A stretch of 64,000 nucleotides of DNA from Chrysoporthe austroafricana (lineage: Eukaryota; Ascomycota; Sordariomycetes; Diaporthales; Cryphonectriaceae): positions 2,294,001-2,358,000 of the forward strand of contig JYIP02000001.1 of NCBI GenBank assembly GCA_001051155.2, given 5' to 3'. The notes beneath the pieces are model-generated. The model saw only the letters and a program-made list of their open reading frames with translations, was not told the origin of the DNA and ran no database searches. Made by a program: the position numbers and the translations under genes. Below, one piece after another: positions 1,481-15,893 of this stretch (position 1 is its first letter; each line of letters begins with the position of its first letter).

Positions 1481-3301
1481 TCAAGAGTACTCGCCCCTCT
1501 CAAACCTCTCGGCATCCCAGAAGCGCGCCGCGATCGCGTTCCCGTTGAACACCCTCTCCTCCAGCGCGTTGACCGCCCGCAGCGCGGACACGGCGTCGGT
1601 GAACTTGATGAACACCTGGCGGCCCGCGACGTCGATGTACAGCCGCTCCACCCGCCCGTACTTGTCGCCGCACTCCTCGCCGATCTCCTGCCCCAGCCCG
1701 TCGTTGATCTCGCCCTGCAGGTTCTCCATGCCCTCGAGCATATTCCGCAGCACGACCACCTCCGACATGGGCCCGAACCGGCCCCCATCCTCCCCCTCCT
1801 GGCCCCGCCCGCCCCGGGCCGCCGCCGCCGTCTTGCCCCCGACGATCTTGCCCCGCCCGCCCGGCTCCGCGAACCCGCCGCCCTCGGCGTCGGGCCGCTT
1901 CCGGCGCTTCTCGACCTTGACCGACAGCGGGTTGACGATCCCCGACGACGACGCCCCCAGCCCCGTCCCCGCGGTCCAGCCGTACTTGCTCATCAGCCGC
2001 TGCGCGAAGCCCTTCTGCCCGGGCCGGTTGGTGCGCGGCTGCTCCTCCTCCTCCCCGCCGCCAGCGTCGGGCGCGGGGCCGTCGGCGGGCGGCAGGTCGA
2101 CGTCGCCTATGTCATCGTCATCGTCGTCGGCGGTGTCGATCTCCATGTCGTCGTTGGGGGCGGCGTGGGGCTGGGGCGGCGCCTCGTAGCGGACTGGGCC
2201 GCGAGAGATGGTCGTGCCGTCCTCGGCCGGTTCAGGGGGCGGAGGGGGCGGTGGTGGTGTGGGTGTGTGAGCGGGCAGCGGCGGCGCTGGTGCCATGCCT
2301 GACAGTGCGAGGCGCCGCGCGTAGGCATCGTCGCCTGTCGCGTCGTCGGGCACCGGCGCCGGTGCGTCTCGGGGCGGAGGAGGCGGTGACATCGGCGGTG
2401 GTGCGAAGGAGTACTCTGCCGGCGGGGCGAACTGATCTGGTAGTGATGAAAGACATCGTGAGCATACGGGGCCAACCAGGTCCCACGTAGAGAGGAGAGG
2501 AGAGCAACTTACTGCCCAGGCCCGCCCGCCCGTCCCCGCCGTCCTCGTCCTCGCTGCTCTCCCCGTAGCTGGCCTCCCTCCTCCTGCGCCTGTGCGCGTA
2601 GAGCACGGCCTTCCACTCCTGCACCTCCCGGACCCGCTCCTCGCTCCGCAGGTACTCGTCGACGTTGGTCGGCCGCGCCGGGTCGTAGATCTCGTCCCAG
2701 TCCGTCTCGCGCTGCGCGCCGTCCCGCGCCCCGAGCCTCTTCCTCTTCTTGGCCGCCTTGCGCCCGCCCCGCTGCCGCTTCTCGCCCGCCCCGCCCCACA
2801 GGTAGTCGCCGTCCTCCGCCGCCGCCCAGTCGGCGAGTGTGCTGCGCTGCTGCGGCGCCGGGGGCTGGCCGCCGGCGGGCGGCTGGTCGGGTGGTGTCGC
2901 GGCCTCCCCGCTACCGCTGTCGCCGCCCGCGGGGGCGGCGCCGGTGCCGGGCGGCGGTGGTGGTATGGCCTTGGGGAAGCCGGGCTTAGAGGGCTTCTTC
3001 TGGTTGGCCTGCGGGCGGCGGATGATGGGCTGGAAGCGTAGGGCTGAGAGGGAGAATGGTGGTTAGCCGGAGGGAGTAGGCGAGTAGCAGCGCGGGGGCA
3101 GGGCTACAGCACAGGTGCTTAGGGCGAAGGGGGCGGTGGCATACCTGGGTTGACCTCCTTCCTGGCGGCGTCCTCCTTGTCCCCGCCGTCGTAGAGCACC
3201 GGCGCGCCGGAGATGGACGCTGGGGCGTCAGCTTTGGGGTTGAGCAGGTTCGCGTACAGCGACATGCCGCCGCCTTTGGGCGGCGGGGGCGGCGCGGCCA
3301 T
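1481..3301 (-). CDS. SPF45/RBM17-like splicing factor (G-patch + UHM)
   Basis: Three exons (3301-3145, 3043-2513, 2436-1481) give 547 residues with consistent phase. Introns are 101 nt (GTATGC donor) and 76 nt (GTAAGT donor). The protein starts with a Pro-rich segment and SLYANLL, followed by LRFQPIIRRPQ, the N-terminal block typical of SPF45 orthologues. The middle is a basic KKRKR segment and acidic/Pro-rich linkers. A G-patch lies at about 372-400 (KGFAQRLMSKYGW..GTGLG). The C-terminal RRM at about 450-540 carries an R-V-F triplet, matching the R-X-F signature of U2AF-homology motifs that bind ULM peptides of splicing factors. The family acts in the spliceosome in 3' splice-site choice. 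The very Pro-rich linker (about 285-300) is probably lineage-specific. Confidence 0.88.
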
Positions 3302-8154: not shown

Positions 8155-8754
8155 TCAAAATTGCATGCCTTGCCGCGGAGGTGGAGAAGCGGAAGAACGC
8201 GAAGGCTCATCGCCATCGCCGGACGCCGTCGCTTTCTCCGCCTTGTTTGAGTGGCTACTTTCCCTCTTCATGGTGTCGGCACCACCATCCTCCCCGACGT
8301 TCCTCTCAATAATCCTCGCCTTCCCCTGCGCCCTCTTCACCCGATCGTCGAAATCGTTAACCGCGTCATCCGTGTTCTCAGTGGACAACGTATCCGGCTC
8401 AACCAGCGCGTGGAGGGTGACAATGTTCTTCTCCAGCCTCGCGCCCCCCTTGTCCAAGCCCGGCAGGCTCTTCCCCCCCGTCAGGCTCTCAGACGGAGCA
8501 GCAGGAGCGGCAGAATTTGATACCTGTGCTGGCTGGGGCTGGGCCTGGGGCTGAGGGAGCCTGTTCGCCCACACGACAGACTTGCCGTAGAGCCGCCCCG
8601 CCTCGACGAACTTCTCAAAGCCCTTCTCGATGCCGAATGAGCGGCCCTCGACCCTTCCCGCGCGGGCGCCGTCGGCGACTCCTTGCTCATAGCCCTCCGA
8701 GTAGAATTTGTCCTCAAGGTTGAGGACGTCGTCGAATGGATCGCTGGATGCCAT
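8155..8754 (-). CDS. lto1: LTO1/ORAOV1-like protein (deca-GX3, Yae1 family)
   Basis: Single exon of 199 residues with its start at the ATG at 8754. That ATG is chosen because the conserved part begins DPFDDVLNLEDKFY, typical of LTO1 N-termini; the frame extends upstream only through non-conserved sequence. Residues 19-50 carry the deca-GX3 signature: Gly every four residues in YSEGYEQGVADGARAGRVEG and on through the FGIEKGFEKF block. LTO1 with YAE1 is the adaptor that hands the Rli1/ABCE1 apoprotein to the cytosolic iron-sulfur targeting complex. The C-terminal 120 residues are low-complexity, Ser/Asp/Glu-rich and not conserved. The C-terminus ends RQGMQF; the family tail usually ends in an aromatic residue used for CIA docking, so the terminal Phe is consistent. 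Confidence 0.82.
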   Translation of the reverse strand: MASSDPFDDVLNLEDKFYSEGYEQGVADGARAGRVEGRSFGIEKGFEKFVEAGRLYGKSVVWANRLPQPQAQPQPAQVSNSAAPAAPSESLTGGKSLPGLDKGGARLEKNIVTLHALVEPDTLSTENTDDAVNDFDDRVKRAQGKARIIERNVGEDGGADTMKRESSHSNKAEKATASGDGDEPSRSSASPPPRQGMQF

Positions 8755-9798
8755 GATGCCCAGAGTTTCTTCCCCCGAGAGCGTTGGAGGGGAATGAACG
8801 AGCTGCCTCTGGTGCAAATCTTGCTTTGATTTCGGCGTTCGCTTTCGATGTCGGAGAGTGGTTGATAAAATGTAAAAGCTCTTTGGGTTGTTGAGTGGAT
8901 GAATTTTGGGGCTCAAGATGACGGTCCAGCCCGCACGAGTAGCAACGCGGACCCGGGCATTCGGATCCGAGATCGGCCGGAAACTTGCCTATGACTATAC
9001 CTATGTCTAAACCTTCTCTTCGAACTTTCATAAATAGAGTATTGATACAAAGTCGAGAGATGATGCGAATTTTTATTTCTGTTTCCCTGAGGATGGCACT
9101 TCAAGTAATCATATTCCTAGTTATCCGATAAAGAAATTTGACCAATTAGCCTTCTGATTTTATTGAAACAATTCTGATCGCTTTGTATCTGAGCATTTCA
9201 GCCTCGTGGGGACAGAAGGATTCATTTATATGTGGGAACAAGGTTTTATAGGCCCGAGATCACCTGCGTAGAAACCGAAGCCCATCATTCGTGGGCAGCG
9301 TAATGCCGAAGGAGCACTCCCTAGTCAAGGCTGAAATCGTGAGGACAGAATCCTGTTGAACGTAGCCAGACGACCGTCCACGATAATGAACGTGCGGATT
9401 AGTGAGCTGGTCAGGACTGTCATATCTGATGTGGTGACAGAAGCTCCGGGATGTTGAGGAAGAGCCAATGCGGCTGGGCACCACTACGTTGTTCAAGCTA
9501 TTACTTAAGGTTTCATTGTCAACTAGGTTTGGATCTATGGGGCTCCCACACCTTTGGATTATAATATTATAAATTACATGATAGCTACAATCTGCCACGG
9601 TCGTGAATGATGCTCGCCGCCGAGAAATGAAGGGCGCCCGCAGGACGAGCTTGAGTCTGAGGGCCCATAGTGCGGGCGCAGAGTACTAGGAGGTGGTAGA
9701 AGCCAGACGATGAGGGTATTCAACGAGGAAGATTGAGAGATTTTGCTTTGTATTACGTATCCGACCTTCAGGTCCAAGGTTTTACCAACGGAGTGTGT
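8755..9798. other. AT-richer intergenic spacer, LTO1 promoter / gasdermin 3' flank
   Basis: The segment 9040-9240 is visibly AT-richer than the surrounding DNA. A minus-strand frame at 9260-9598 has no ATG start and no recognised domain; it could be a stray exon or relic. It marks the left edge of the accessory gasdermin/protease locus. Confidence 0.45.
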
Positions 9799-10668
9799 TC
9801 AACCAACAACAGCGAGGCGTACCGCGTCGCCTGAGTCGACCTCCTCGTCCTCGCTCTCAAAGCCATCAAACATAGGTATATCGTCAGACCCTGCTTCTGC
9901 CTCTGCCATCGTGAGCGGAACGTCTTTGATGTTAGCTTGCAGCTCGAACAGAGCACCATCAGTCACGTCGGTGGCCTTCTTGATGCGTTTCCTAAACCTC
10001 GAGTGCTGAAACTTCCTCACCCGGTATGCAAAAGCACACTCCTCCTGGACTTCTAACTCTGACCCTGCCGAAGCCTGACTACCACCTGAAATCCCAGCGC
10101 CGGTCTCGATCCCAGCAGGTGGGAGGCTGGCGTTGAAATCCGCGGACATGCTCTGGTCTCGGGCCCCCGAGTTTCTCACGAACAGCTTCTTACAGGTCGC
10201 CACCCCGATAATCAGGTATAAGGGCTTGGAGTATATGCCTCTTTTCACGTACTTGGACACGTCCGTGGTCCGCAATGCCTCATTGATGTATTCTCCGGCC
10301 ATACCCCGTATGATGCACCTTGCGTGGATGTCCAAGGCCTCGACGGTCGTTTCGGCGCTGTGTGACCACTTCCCTTCGACACCTCCGCCAAGGCTGGTCA
10401 TCGGGGCGATGGTAGGAAGCACAGCCTTCAGCTTCGTGCCAGCGTTCGTGGAAAGCTCGGCGTGTACCAATCTTCGAATGCTCGCCGTTTCGTCCCGTGT
10501 TCTGTCATATGGGAAGGGCTGGATCCCAACCTCGTAGTTGAGGGATGACTCAAGGTCGTCTGGCTGCGTGAGGATGCTTCCCAGTACCATGAGGGTGTTG
10601 GGCTTCTGCGGATAGCGATATACATGCCACTTCATATCGCCCGCGACGACGCCGGATGATATCGCCAT
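9799..10668 (-). CDS. Fungal gasdermin-like pore-forming cell-death protein (HET-Q1/RCD-1 type)
   Basis: Intronless 289-residue protein. The N-terminal block HVYRYPQKPNTLMVLGSIL followed by DDLESSLN, the central TTVEALDIHAR and YVKRGIYSKPLYLIIGVAT blocks, and the late CAFAYRVRKF block fit my knowledge of the fungal gasdermin family (RCD-1, HET-Q1). These are about 260-280 residues long with an N-terminal pore-forming domain and a short tail. Residues 185-205 are a Gly/Ser-rich hinge. Residues 224-231 are strongly basic (RFRKRIKK), followed by a 50-residue acidic tail. In characterised members a subtilisin-like protease removes a C-terminal piece of about 5 kDa, freeing the N-part to form plasma-membrane pores. 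Here the divergent neighbour encodes such a protease, which strongly supports the call. The start could also be the internal Met12. No Cys or secretion signature suggests an alternative. Confidence 0.8.
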   Translation of the reverse strand: MAISSGVVAGDMKWHVYRYPQKPNTLMVLGSILTQPDDLESSLNYEVGIQPFPYDRTRDETASIRRLVHAELSTNAGTKLKAVLPTIAPMTSLGGGVEGKWSHSAETTVEALDIHARCIIRGMAGEYINEALRTTDVSKYVKRGIYSKPLYLIIGVATCKKLFVRNSGARDQSMSADFNASLPPAGIETGAGISGGSQASAGSELEVQEECAFAYRVRKFQHSRFRKRIKKATDVTDGALFELQANIKDVPLTMAEAEAGSDDIPMFDGFESEDEEVDSGDAVRLAVVG

Positions 10669-11024
10669 ATCGTCTGGCTTGGAGCAAAGGGCTCGACGAG
10701 TACCAAGTGGATCTCTCGTCTGATCAGAGATGTTGATGAGTGCTCCAACGATGGTGATCGTTCAAGGTCACTGTCAGCACCAGTTACAGAGCCACATGAG
10801 GCTCTGGGTACCTGGCAAGCATGACCGGAGCCAATGGCCATCGGGTGGCTTGCAACAGCCCCCATGTAAGCGTGACCATTTGGCGTCACTGCTTGCGCCC
10901 TCAATCTCACACATCTTCCTCCTCATTCCCACTCTATCTGGGCCAAGATTTTGGCTCTTTGCTCGTACCGCCGGCTTCTCCGACGCGTTCCTGGAGGGTT
11001 TGCAGAAGTCTAATTAATCCCAAC
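10669..11024. promoter_or_regulatory. Shared divergent promoter, gasdermin / ANK-S8 protease
   Basis: The 356 bp between the two start codons must carry both promoters, so the pair is probably co-regulated. The plus-strand frame stays open upstream of ATG 11025 to 10821, but that sequence lacks domain character. No individual operator could be assigned. Confidence 0.5.
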
Positions 11025-13238
11025 ATGAGTTCTTCAGAACGCTCCCGTCCGGACTCACAGCTGCCTTGGCAACCCGCAATGGTGGACTTGAGTTATTGCA
11101 ACTTCCAGGACACGAAGCACCTGCATGAGGAACTCTGCCGCAACTCTAAATCGATGCTTCGACGTCATCTCAGGTCTAACGGTGCAACGCTTTTACACGA
11201 AATTGCAGAATGGGGGCTTCCGAATGAAGTGTTTCTGTTGATTGTTTATGGGGCATCAATCGACGCTGAGACGCGCACGCATAAAACTGCCCTTCACATC
11301 GCACTCAGACGCAGAACGTTCGCGGCCGCACTTATCTTGCGTGCCTTCGGATCGTCCTGGTGGTATGCAAACTGGAGGCCAGACAATGATGGTGATGCAT
11401 GGAGTTGGGCCAATGATGACTTTTCCACCAAGGTCAACGATAGGTTGGCGAAATGGACGCCTGACAACATGCTCGTGCCGCGAAATGGAATTAATCTCGA
11501 AAGTCTAAAGAGATTCATCTCCAAAGGTGTAGTGGACTTTTCCGGGATGCTTTTTTGGGCCGCAAGGGCTAACAAGTCCAACCTTGTCTCATTCATTCTG
11601 GAATATTCTAGGGAGACAGAAGGTGCGAATGTGCTACCCAACATGGACAGCTTAGGCTGGACAGTCCTCCACCATGCTGCTAGAAAAGGGAACTCTGAAG
11701 TGGTTGCAAAACTACTGGATGAAGGGGCCAATATTGACATTAAGACTGCAGAGTACGGTTGGACTCCTCTCCTGCTGGCAGCTGACAAAGGTCGGCCGAG
11801 GCTTGTGAGGTTTCTATTGCAGCGCGGCGCCGATATCAACGCGCAGACGGAGCAAGGGATGAATGCGTTCACATTGGCTGAAATGGGAGGCCATCCGACG
11901 ACTCTGCGGATGCTCGAAGAGTACCTTAGCGATGGCCCATATTCACCGTATATCCGCCGGACAGTAGAGAGTTATACTACTGGCGTGCGCCTATACGATC
12001 GGGTGGGACAAGACCCTCTCACAACTTAGGAGGTAGAGAACGTTGAGAGCATAACTCGGGACCTGGCTTCATCTTCTGCGCCAACAAGCAGCAACCAAGC
12101 TGACAACACTGCCGAATTGGATGTTCAAGCTGATGTTCACCTCGTCGGAGGAAGTTTTGATGGAAACACGAACTCTGTGCCGCTTGATTCGTGAGTCGCA
12201 GGGTGGTCACCAGGACTGCATTGCTCGGACGAAATAGCTGACACTTGTCTAGCCCTGAACTCAACCAACCAGGGGCTCTAGATAGACTCTTGGCAACCTT
12301 TCAAGACCAAAGGCAGAACTTTCGGTTTCATGACGACGACAGGATAGTCAAGATTGCCGTTCTCGATACGGGACTTGACCTCACGCACCGAGACTGGCGC
12401 CAGGCCCGGGTCGTGAGGTTTGGTGAAGGAGGCCCAGTCCGCGAGGAAACGGAGCCTCGCCAATGGGTCAGAATCATGGACTTCAAGAATTTCTGTGGGC
12501 CACAGACATCGGGGCATATCTGCTCAAACACGTCGGCCGGCTGGCGCAAATGATGGTCCCGACGGTCTCCGACCAGAAGCTGTGGTCCGGGCGATCGACT
12601 GGGCCATCGAAAAGGGTGTGGATCTCATCAACCTGTCCTGTGGCTTCTCGTCACTTAACCCTGCCGTCAAGGCTGCGCTCAAGAGGGCCAAGACCAACAA
12701 GATTGTCGTGTTTGCAGCCATGTCAAACGGTGGGAACAACGAGAATGCAGCGTGGCCCGCCCGAGATCCAAGCCTGGCCATCGGTATACACTCGTGCAGG
12801 GAGGGAGGGACGAAGACGTCGGACTTCACGCCGCCGCCGATTCGCAACTCTGACAACTTCATGGCAGTGGGCGAACGCATCGTCTCGCACTGGCCCGAGT
12901 CCAAAGGAGGGGGCTTCCGGCTCGCTGAGGGGACGTCCTTCGCAACGCCCGTGGCCACCGCCATGGCTGCGCTCATACTTACCTTTGTGTGGCAAAAGAG
13001 GTGCAAGAAGGACAGGACGGAGGCCGAGGGCTTGGTTAAGCTTGACGACATCCTCGAGACCGATGGCATGGCCAATATCTTGCACAAGATCAGCAACGCG
13101 ACGCCGGATGGTAGGTACTGCTACATACACCCAGGGCTCCTGTGGAAGGACTTCGATCCTAGGGTCTTAGGCGTTGAGGACACGCCGGACGCTCGGCAGA
13201 AGTGGGCATGGGGAGTTATAAGAGCTGCCCTGGCCTGA
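11025..13238 (+). pseudogene. Ankyrin-repeat / subtilisin-family (S8) protease, frame disrupted; partner of the gasdermin
   Basis: The first exon (from ATG 11025) encodes about 334 residues. Ankyrin repeats lie at about 52-105 and 208-302 (GWTVLHHAARKGNSEVVAKLL, YGWTPLLLAADKGRPRLVRFLL). A TAG at 12027 ends the frame unless a 45- or 66-nt intron ending there is removed; coding-like sequence continues in the same frame afterwards. An intron at 12191-12252 (GTGAGT..CTAG) leads to the catalytic Asp motif IAVLDTGLD (Asp codon 12365). The frame then breaks at about 12500-12560, where the His block should lie: three frames each carry a piece. Beyond it, one frame encodes AIDWAIEKGVDLINLSCG, the oxyanion Asn region (AMSNGGNN) and the Ser motif GTSFATP (Ser codon 12936). 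Ser and Asp are intact; a clean His motif is not visible in any one frame. Either the gene is decayed or the assembly has indels. In known systems the S8 protease cleaves and activates the adjacent gasdermin. Confidence 0.75.
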
Positions 13239-13481
13239 CACCTGCTTCACTGCGCATCGTCCCAGCAAGAGCGGGTTACAACGGAAATAGCTAAGCGTCG
13301 GCACTCGACTCTCATTCTTGCTGCCTCGTTGCTGCTGGGCGCATCACTCTCATCCAGACGCCCATCCAAAGACCTTAGGGCTCCTCCTCCCTTGCGGGAG
13401 GCAGGCTCTACCACAAGGACCGCCGACCGCCGACCAGATCAACGCCTCGAAGCAAAGATGGGCACAACACCTGCTTCCCGT

Positions 13482-14391
13482 CTAATGCATCAACAAGCCC
13501 CCGTTGGCGCAGACGACCTGCCCGGTACACCACGCCGCATCCGGCGTGCACAACATGCCCACGATGCCCGCAATCTCATGGGTATATGCCGGCCTCCCGC
13601 CGCCCGTCTTGGCCTCCTCGACCACCTCGTCGGCGTCCACACCCTTCCGCGCCCGCATGAGCGGGGCGTGCTCGATCCAGCCCCTGATGCCGGCCTTGAA
13701 CTCGTCGCTGTTGGCAGCGTACATGGGCCCCTCCACCGGGCCGGGGTTGACCGCGTTGACGGTGGCGCGCTCGCTCAGCTCCCTCGCCCAGACGCGCGTC
13801 ATGGCCTCCAGGGCGGCCTTCGACCCGCCGTAGACGGACTGGCCGAGGAAACCGCAGTCGGACGAGATGGACGAGAGGTTGACGACGCGCCCGGAGCGGT
13901 CCGTGGGGAGGTACGGCGCGGCGGCCTGCATGAGGAGCAGCGGGCCCAGGACGTTGACGTGGAAGGTGGCGTCGAAGTCCTCGAGCTTGATGTCCGGCAG
14001 CTTGTCGTTCCTGGCGACGCCCGCGTTGTTGACTATTATGTCGATCTGGAACTTGGCGTCCGGGCTGGGCGGCGAGGACAGGAACTGACCCTTGGTGGCG
14101 GCGACGAGGGCGGACGGCCCCTGGGGCGTCCCGAGGTCTGCCTGCACGCCGAAGGTCTGGATGCCGTACCTGCGCTCGAGCTTCTTGGAGAGCTCCTTGG
14201 TGAGCGAGGTCGAGGACTTAGATGTGTAGTTCAGCACCAAGTTGCAGCCTTTCGAGGCCAGGTTCTCTGCGATGGCTGACCCGATACCTGCAGCGTGTAA
14301 GTGGTGTGAGCGGCTCGGAGGATCTGTAGAGCATACCCCTCGAGGCACCTGTCACTATTCCCAACTTCCCTGCTAATACCCTGCCGGCCAT
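13482..14391 (-). CDS. Short-chain dehydrogenase/reductase (3-oxoacyl-ACP reductase-like)
   Basis: Two exons (14391-14337 and 14287-13482) give 286 residues. The intron of 49 nt has a GTATGC donor and GCTGCAG acceptor and splits a Gly codon inside the cofactor motif, giving TGASRGIG. Other classical SDR landmarks follow: NNAG, the Ser of NLSSIS, the active-site Tyr-Lys pair in SVYGGSKAA, and NPGPVEGPM after strand 6. The N-terminal Rossmann motif with following Arg suggests NADPH preference. The closest families are fungal FabG-like or versicolorin-reductase-like enzymes; the substrate cannot be told. It lies tail-to-tail with the ANK-S8 gene, separated by 243 bp. Confidence 0.85.
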
Positions 14392-15076
14392 CTTCGCTCT
14401 CGATCTTCCGCAAACACCGAGTGACAATGGCGATGACAGTTCACGTGTCTACGTAAGATAGACTAATAAGAAGCCGGATGTGTAAGGAGGGGAGAGGTAT
14501 TTGAAAGACAGGTCAATTTAGGCGAGCATAGATAGGTGGATTATATGTAGACTGAAGGATATCCTCAAGGGGAAAGAAAGAGAGCAAGCCGAGATGAGTC
14601 CTTGTCACGCAGCATCGTGAGCATCCCAACCCTCGCTTTTATATCGGCGTCCCGCTTAACCGAGCTGCGAGCCTGGGTAAGGAAGTGAAGCCTCTCCACA
14701 GGCGCTGACCCCGCTGTCGCTAGCAGGGCGGCAGGGCGGGCGCTGGCCTTTTAGGGGCCCCTTTCCCCACTATGCGCATTAAGCGCGTCACTGTTAGGCG
14801 CCCCAGTCGGGTCAAAGTGCGCCGGCCGCCGGCCGCCGGCACGACGCCGCCGACCTGAGCCCCTCCAACTTTCTGCGGCCGCAAGGCGAAGGCTGAGGCT
14901 GGCTGCCGCTCACGATTCTGCCCGCCGTGACTCTCCCCACGCGACCTCTACGACCACGACGGCGCCACACGACACGGGCAGCACACACGCAGGACCCGAC
15001 AGACCTGATAGCATCACACCCCGCGCCCATTCTTTCTTTCTCTTGTCGTCTCGATATACGTCCTGTCACTGTCACC
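14392..15076. other. Divergent promoter region, SDR / NAA10
   Basis: Head-to-head spacer with both promoters. A GC-rich segment with repeated GCCGGC (14819-14842) lies upstream of the NAA10 5' UTR. No gene is called. Confidence 0.5.
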
Positions 15077-15893
15077 ATGGACATCCGACTCCTCAGGCCG
15101 TCGGACCTGCCGCTCATCCAGCACGCCAACCTCGAGAACCTCCCCGAGAACTACTTCCTCAAGTACTACCTGTACCACGCGCTGTCGTGGCCCCAGCTCA
15201 GCTTCGTGGCCGTCGATGTCGCCCGCCCCAAGAAGACCCCCTACGACTACCCCAAGATCGTGGGCTATGTCCTAGCTAAGATGGAGGAGGAGCCCGCCGA
15301 CGGCGTCCAGCACGGCCACATCACCAGCCTGAGCGTCATGCGGACGCACCGGAGACTAGGCATCGCTGAGAAGCTGATGCGGCAGAGCCGTACGTCACCG
15401 CCTTCCATCCCCCCTCCCCAGGCCGTTCTGGGGCTTGAGATGCATGTGATGATGGGTGGTCAGCGCTGATATAGAAGACGGAGGGACAGAGCTGGCGATG
15501 GTCGAGACCTTTGGCGCCATGTACGTCTCCCTGCACGTGCGCGTCTCCAACCAGGCCGCCATCCACCTGTACAAGGACACGCTGGGCTTCCAGAACGAGA
15601 AGACCGAGGCCAAGTACTACGCGGACGGCGAGGACGCCTACAGCATGCGGCTGGACCTGAGCTCCATCCGCGAGCAGCTGCAGGACCAGGCCGACGCCGA
15701 AAGCGAGGACGTCGATGAGGGCGACGCCGTGGGCGACGTTGGGAGCGACCCGGCCAAGCGGAAGGCGGCGGCAGCGAAGAAGAAGAAGAAGGCCGCCGAC
15801 GGCGCCAAGGACGACAAGAGGAAGGTCAAGGTCGGGCGGGGGCTGGGCGTGGGCGAGCTCGTCGAGAGGGACGAGAGCAAGCATGCGTCGTGA
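15077..15893 (+). CDS. naa10: N-terminal acetyltransferase NatA catalytic subunit (NAA10/ARD1)
   Basis: Two exons (15077-15389, 15490-15893) give 238 residues. The 100-nt intron (GTACGT donor, GACAG acceptor) splits a Gln codon so that LMRQSQ continues into [24 protein letters not shown]-fold landmarks: [11 protein letters not shown] at the start, [13 protein letters not shown] substrate-side loop, [21 protein letters not shown] containing the acetyl-CoA R/Q-x-x-G-x-A loop, and the conserved [15 protein letters not shown]. The C-terminal 70 residues are acidic then Lys-rich (AKKKKKA), as in fungal ARD1. With NAA15 it acetylates Ser/Ala/Thr N-termini co-translationally on ribosomes. The start ATG sits in a good context (gtcaccATGg). 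Confidence 0.93.

Follow-up and report, generated by a model that had tools for sequence, protein, structure and literature searches.

An intact HET-Q1-type gasdermin gene beside a broken ankyrin–S8 protease gene in Chrysoporthe austroafricana

Genes and features at the locus

The locus lies within a 64,000-nucleotide stretch of the Chrysoporthe austroafricana genome (hereafter the window) and comprises two divergently oriented units. On the minus strand is a single-exon open reading frame of 289 codons (9799–10668), with 356 bp between its ATG and a second, divergent one at 11025. From the latter, a plus-strand region (11025–13238) matches Ank_2 (ankyrin repeats, E = 7.4e-41) and Peptidase_S8 (an S8 peptidase segment, E = 1.2e-13). 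The features recognized are as follows:

9799–10668, minus strand: intact HET-Q1-type fungal gasdermin of 289 amino acids, from sequence search, alignment and structure comparison
9802–9945, minus strand: acidic C-terminal tail of 48 residues (5.08 kDa, net charge −12 by sequence), the putative inhibitory segment
9946–9948, minus strand: codon of Phe241, the presumed cleavage point, aligned with the residue that ends the HET-Q1 pore chain of PDB 9uv9
10669–11024, no strand: divergent intergenic region of 356 bp (from the coordinates), presumably a shared promoter
11025–12029, plus strand: ankyrin-repeat open reading frame of 334 codons up to an in-frame TAG (12027–12029), forming the start of the protease relic
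12030–12190, plus strand: linker containing GGSFDG, homologous and in frame beyond the TAG by alignment
12191–12252, plus strand: canonical 62-nt GT-AG intron (GTGAGT ... CTGAC ... TAG) from spliced alignment
12353–12373, plus strand: S8 catalytic-Asp motif IAVLDTG, from a motif scan
12497–12590, plus strand: eroded stretch of 94 nt with a frame shift and no HGT, by comparison with relatives
12591–13238, plus strand: C-terminal half of the S8 domain, beginning with AIDWA and, by alignment, in a different frame from the Asp half
12930–12950, plus strand: S8 Ser motif GTSFATP, from a motif scan

The E-values exclude chance as the source of the gasdermin, ankyrin and S8 sequence matches. The flanking genes look ordinary, coding for a Yae1_N protein (8155–8904, minus strand), a short-chain dehydrogenase (13482–14348, minus strand) and a GNAT acetyltransferase (14897–15466, plus strand); a G-patch domain protein is encoded at 1484–3103 on the minus strand.

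The gasdermin

Sequence comparison identifies the 289-residue protein as a HET-Q1-type fungal gasdermin, in agreement with the first-pass annotation, which had recognized a fungal gasdermin from its pattern of blocks. As a single query, it matched PDB 9uv9 (“fGSDM/HET-Q1 pores”) with E = 1.3e-30 over residues 8–241, which establishes that its pore-forming part is homologous to HET-Q1, and the family profile (27 rows) reached the same structure with E = 2.9e-48. RCD-1-2 was reached by that profile at E = 0.0096; by sequence the protein is thus far nearer HET-Q1 than RCD-1-2. Its β-sheet core, the lack of which would have spoken against the identification, appears to be present: in a structure comparison with a low-confidence model of the protein, the seven top-ranked structures were all gasdermins, with the RCD-1 pore first, as would be predicted for the gasdermin N-terminal fold. 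Neither Pfam nor PADLOC assigned the window protein to a family, and the Pfam Gasdermin model touched just 1 of its 27 relatives, at E = 0.016.

In passages of PMC10989679 and PMC12881547, the S8 protease HET-Q2 is described as removing a short C-terminal inhibitory piece from HET-Q1, upon which the gasdermin forms pores; the cut is placed at F238 (PMC10989679). The corresponding Phe241 of the window protein is a Phe in 27 of the 27 rows of alignment A1, across which the net charge of the tail ranges from −9 to −19. These features bear out the earlier suggestion that cleavage at the C-terminus is the likely activation step, with a short tail following the Phe that a protease would cut; the cleavage and the pore formation are what we infer for the window protein. 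The Podospora anserina HET-Q1 (9uv9) is alike in length (278 amino acids according to part of PMC10989679, against 289), in the Phe at the cleavage point and in a tail of about 5 kDa. It differs in that the window gasdermin adjoins a broken ankyrin–S8 gene, whereas het-Q1 and het-Q2 are, in passages of PMC12881547, idiomorphs, i.e., alternative genes at one locus.

We then asked how well the gasdermin has been kept. In a leave-one-out comparison of 26 rows (one partial row was dropped), the window protein (P0001) departs from the alignment at 1 of 31 invariant positions (Y222H), and the other rows do so at 0–2 of 30–32. As this is within the range of the other rows, the gasdermin displays no decay at invariant sites. 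Its terminal branch is long (0.55 against a median of 0.12), which could reflect either relaxed constraint or sparse sampling.

The ankyrin–S8 protease relic

The S8-domain gene lies less than 10 kb from the gasdermin gene, the distance asked of a HET-Q2-like (Q2L) protease gene, and the clustering of the gasdermin with an S8 protease gene that had been proposed is upheld. Ankyrin repeats adjoin the protease domain both in the DNA pieces of the window and in the relatives, ankyrin, TPR and WD40 being the repeats sought beside a Q2L domain. The first-pass annotation had described the divergent neighbour as a gene with ankyrin repeats and the Asp and Ser motifs of the S8 family. All of these pieces are indeed there, but they do not form one readable gene, owing to the TAG and a frame-shifted stretch; together with the loss of HGT, this breakage had been overlooked.

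Spliced alignments with each of three relatives cross the in-frame TAG, with homology resuming in frame beyond it. The intron at 12191–12252 was chosen with P0190 and P0062 in one run and with all three relatives in another; with P0182 as the query, the first run instead placed a stop and an additional frameshift there, the P0182 model itself seemingly retaining the intron. The second lesion lies between the end of the NFC block (12496) and AIDWA (12591), where the window has 94 nt as against 171–213 nt in 23 of 24 relatives (P0063, in which the anchor was not found, was skipped). As 94 is not divisible by three, this shifts the frame. HGT, the motif of the catalytic His, is found in 36 of 36 relatives and is absent from all three frames of 12431–12640, and no single reading frame holds a complete Asp–His–Ser triad.

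The linker around the TAG is poorly conserved, so the stop codon could be spliced out with an unusual intron; the His lesion is independent of the TAG. From the Asp motif to AIDWA we enumerated 42 GT-AG pairs; nine restore the frame without a stop and none contains HGT, by which a rescue of the His motif through splicing is rejected. On the sequence, an active enzyme cannot be made from the window protease, which is presumably inactive today. Upstream of 11181, alignment with three relatives found no counterpart of their first ~120–147 residues; this missing ankyrin start may be repeat-number variation and was not counted as a lesion.

Despite the lesions, the remnant is well conserved in places. 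A leave-one-out comparison of the serine half, from which 12 divergent relatives had been excluded beforehand, found 4 of 49 invariant positions changed, one of them at the alignment edge, and 0–4 in the other 24 rows. As most invariant residues are kept, either the decay set in recently or constraint still acts on the remnant.

Controls from the same genome

As controls, ten S8 loci were fetched from the same genome. Eight of these have the D, H and S motifs, and two (L054 and L055) showed none of them. Five of the loci were aligned with the same three relatives, and each gave at least one alignment free of frameshifts and stops, as against the window stretch, which required a frameshift with all three. 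The control is imperfect: L050 needed two and three frameshifts with two of the three queries, and with one query each L046 needed one frameshift, L048 one frameshift and a stop, and L047 two stops, all in alignments of 31–40% identity. Spliced alignment places one intron in the S8 genes of L046, L047, L048 and L052; in the first three it falls between the His block and the AIDWA-like block, a position at which the window has no intron.

Repeat-induced point mutation was considered as a cause of the lesions. The indices of the protease stretch (TpA/ApT 0.54; (CpA+TpG)/(ApC+GpT) 1.29) compare with 0.69 and 1.18 for the window, and the DNA of 11000–13300 is single-copy in the genome. With no signature and no second copy, this cause is rejected.

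Relatives and co-occurrence with gasdermins

According to parts of PMC10197012 and PMC12881547, roughly 80% of the gasdermin genes of fungi occur in clusters with proteases, whose catalytic domain is often flanked by ankyrin, TPR or WD40 repeats (passages of PMC10989679, PMC10197012 and PMC12881547). Our search with the serine half listed 34 relatives, 24 of which combine Pfam ankyrin and S8 domains. These ankyrin–S8 relatives are mostly from Hypoxylon, Annulohypoxylon, Xylaria, Nemania and Diaporthe, i.e., mainly Xylariales and Diaporthe. The closest ankyrin-bearing ones (Diaporthe and Xylariales; matches down to P0203) are 49–56% identical over the serine half. The earlier view that ankyrin–S8 is an uncommon choice of sensor is weakened by both these counts and the usual repeats of the reviews.

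At least 4 of the 17 gasdermins named by NCBI apparently share a contig with an ankyrin–S8 relative, the placement being deduced from equal contig sizes and organism names; as the protease search was limited, the other 13 are not counted as negatives. In Xylariales sp. 14919 (contig size 1905093), the consecutive tags ANO14919_007260 and ANO14919_007270 are a gasdermin and an ankyrin–S8 protease. In Diaporthe batatas (613949), the two tags are 45 apart and not adjacent, and in Nemania sp. FL0031 (465717) and Nemania abortiva (164412) the two genes probably lie on the same contig. Homologues of the window gasdermin thus do have protease neighbours, as the first-pass reading had required, with consecutive tags in one genome and apparent same-contig placement in three more.

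Like the ankyrin-type Q2L proteases, the window gene has its S8 domain after ankyrin repeats and a gasdermin gene adjacent; unlike them, it has a broken frame and no HGT, and the first ~120–147 residues of its relatives lack a counterpart. The architecture is known, in that gasdermin–protease pairs with ankyrin repeats have been published, and the window holds a degenerate member. A literature search that included parts of PMC10989679, PMC10197012, PMC12881547 and PMC11138114 found no description of a broken Q2L protease beside an intact gasdermin, which does not prove that there is none.

A disarmed module and its possible fates

Taken together, the locus is very probably a two-gene gasdermin/Q2L module of the ankyrin–S8 type, with an intact effector and an activating protease that has become a pseudogene. 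Judging from the relatives and from HET-Q1/HET-Q2, the ankyrin–S8 protein would ancestrally have sensed a cue and cut the gasdermin after Phe241; release of the 5-kDa acidic tail would then have let the N-terminal part oligomerize in the plasma membrane, killing the cell. In the present strain, the protease neighbour would yield at most a 334-residue ankyrin fragment, leaving the gasdermin without a neighbouring activator, so that it might fire only through a protease acting in trans, supplied by another locus or by another strain after hyphal fusion. This copy of the two-gene death switch looks disarmed, and the proposal of a working switch with ankyrin repeats as sensor and the S8 domain as trigger fails here on the broken protease frame and the missing catalytic-His motif.

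Why the gasdermin persists admits several answers. It is plausible, at somewhat short of an even chance, that the module has lost its purpose and is on its way out, with the protease having broken first and the gasdermin having no lesions yet. The protease lesions, the still well-conserved serine half as a sign of young decay and the long terminal branch of the gasdermin all fit such a course, whereas a gasdermin that has kept its frame, its Phe241 and its acidic tail, and in which invariant sites have not changed to excess, argues against it.

A more tentative alternative is that protease decay has produced a het-Q1-like, target-only allele, with the gasdermin kept by selection for allorecognition because strains of the species with an active protease would kill the fusion cells. 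An intact gasdermin beside a broken protease speaks for this reading, which agrees with the published model in which rearrangement and pseudogenization of a gasdermin–protease pair gave rise to het-Q1/het-Q2 (part of PMC10197012) as well as with the idiomorphic het-Q1/het-Q2 locus (part of PMC12881547). Yet plain loss is simpler, the comparison covers one strain, and most fungal gasdermins are not considered allorecognition genes in passages of PMC12881547.

It is unlikely, if conceivable, that another S8 protease of the genome now cuts the window gasdermin. HET-Q1 and Pestalotiopsis gasdermin queries each gave a second, weak match on contig C2 (E = 0.022 and 0.059), and the gasdermin profile, run against the open reading frames of the ten S8 loci, scored at L046 (E = 3.4e-11) and L048 (E = 1.3e-7), values that refer to this small set; the next two scores (0.18 and 0.65) were not significant. 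The gasdermin-like protein of L046 matches RCD-1-1 in the PDB with E = 1.5e-6. The two pairs are:

L046, 3852–5058 and 5428–6261, same strand (C2, ~647.35–649.76 kb): S8 protease with a gasdermin-like gene directly downstream
L048, 3235–3759 (plus) and 5481–4364 (minus) (C16, ~4,266.7–4,269.0 kb): gasdermin-like open reading frame converging on an S8 gene

Both proteases keep all three catalytic motifs (D, H and S), and these two further pairs therefore make activation in trans possible. Against it, the proteases are just 36–43% identical to the query relatives, and their gasdermin-like neighbours are far diverged.

That the window protein is an RCD-1-type gasdermin, switched on by another gasdermin allele and not by cleavage, is improbable. 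Neurospora crassa RCD-1 resembles it in the gasdermin fold, as modelled, and in weak profile similarity; activation by the pairing of two alleles needs no cleavage or protease (part of PMC12881547), and the low-confidence model did rank the RCD-1 pore first. The distant sequence, with the profile far closer to HET-Q1 (2.9e-48 against 0.0096), and the retained HET-Q1-type tail speak against it. Assembly errors in an otherwise intact switch are the most improbable source of the lesions, for at least 77 nt would have to be missing from ordinary, GC-balanced DNA in addition to a separate nonsense codon.

The window thus looks like the effector-keeping side of a pseudogenization event, or like simple decay. 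We offer, as a speculation that we consider unlikely on present evidence, that the pseudogenization route to allorecognition has here been caught in the act: of a self-contained pair of sensor–protease and gasdermin, one haplotype would have lost the protease to decay and retained the gasdermin alone, as a target allele that would be killed on fusion with strains carrying an active ankyrin–S8 protease. The tempting reading as a working, ankyrin-triggered death switch is corrected, and the locus becomes a test case. If other strains carry an intact protease, it would show a pathogen- or damage-sensing death module turning into a self/non-self locus; if none does, it would provide a dated case of the death of such a module, with the effector going last.
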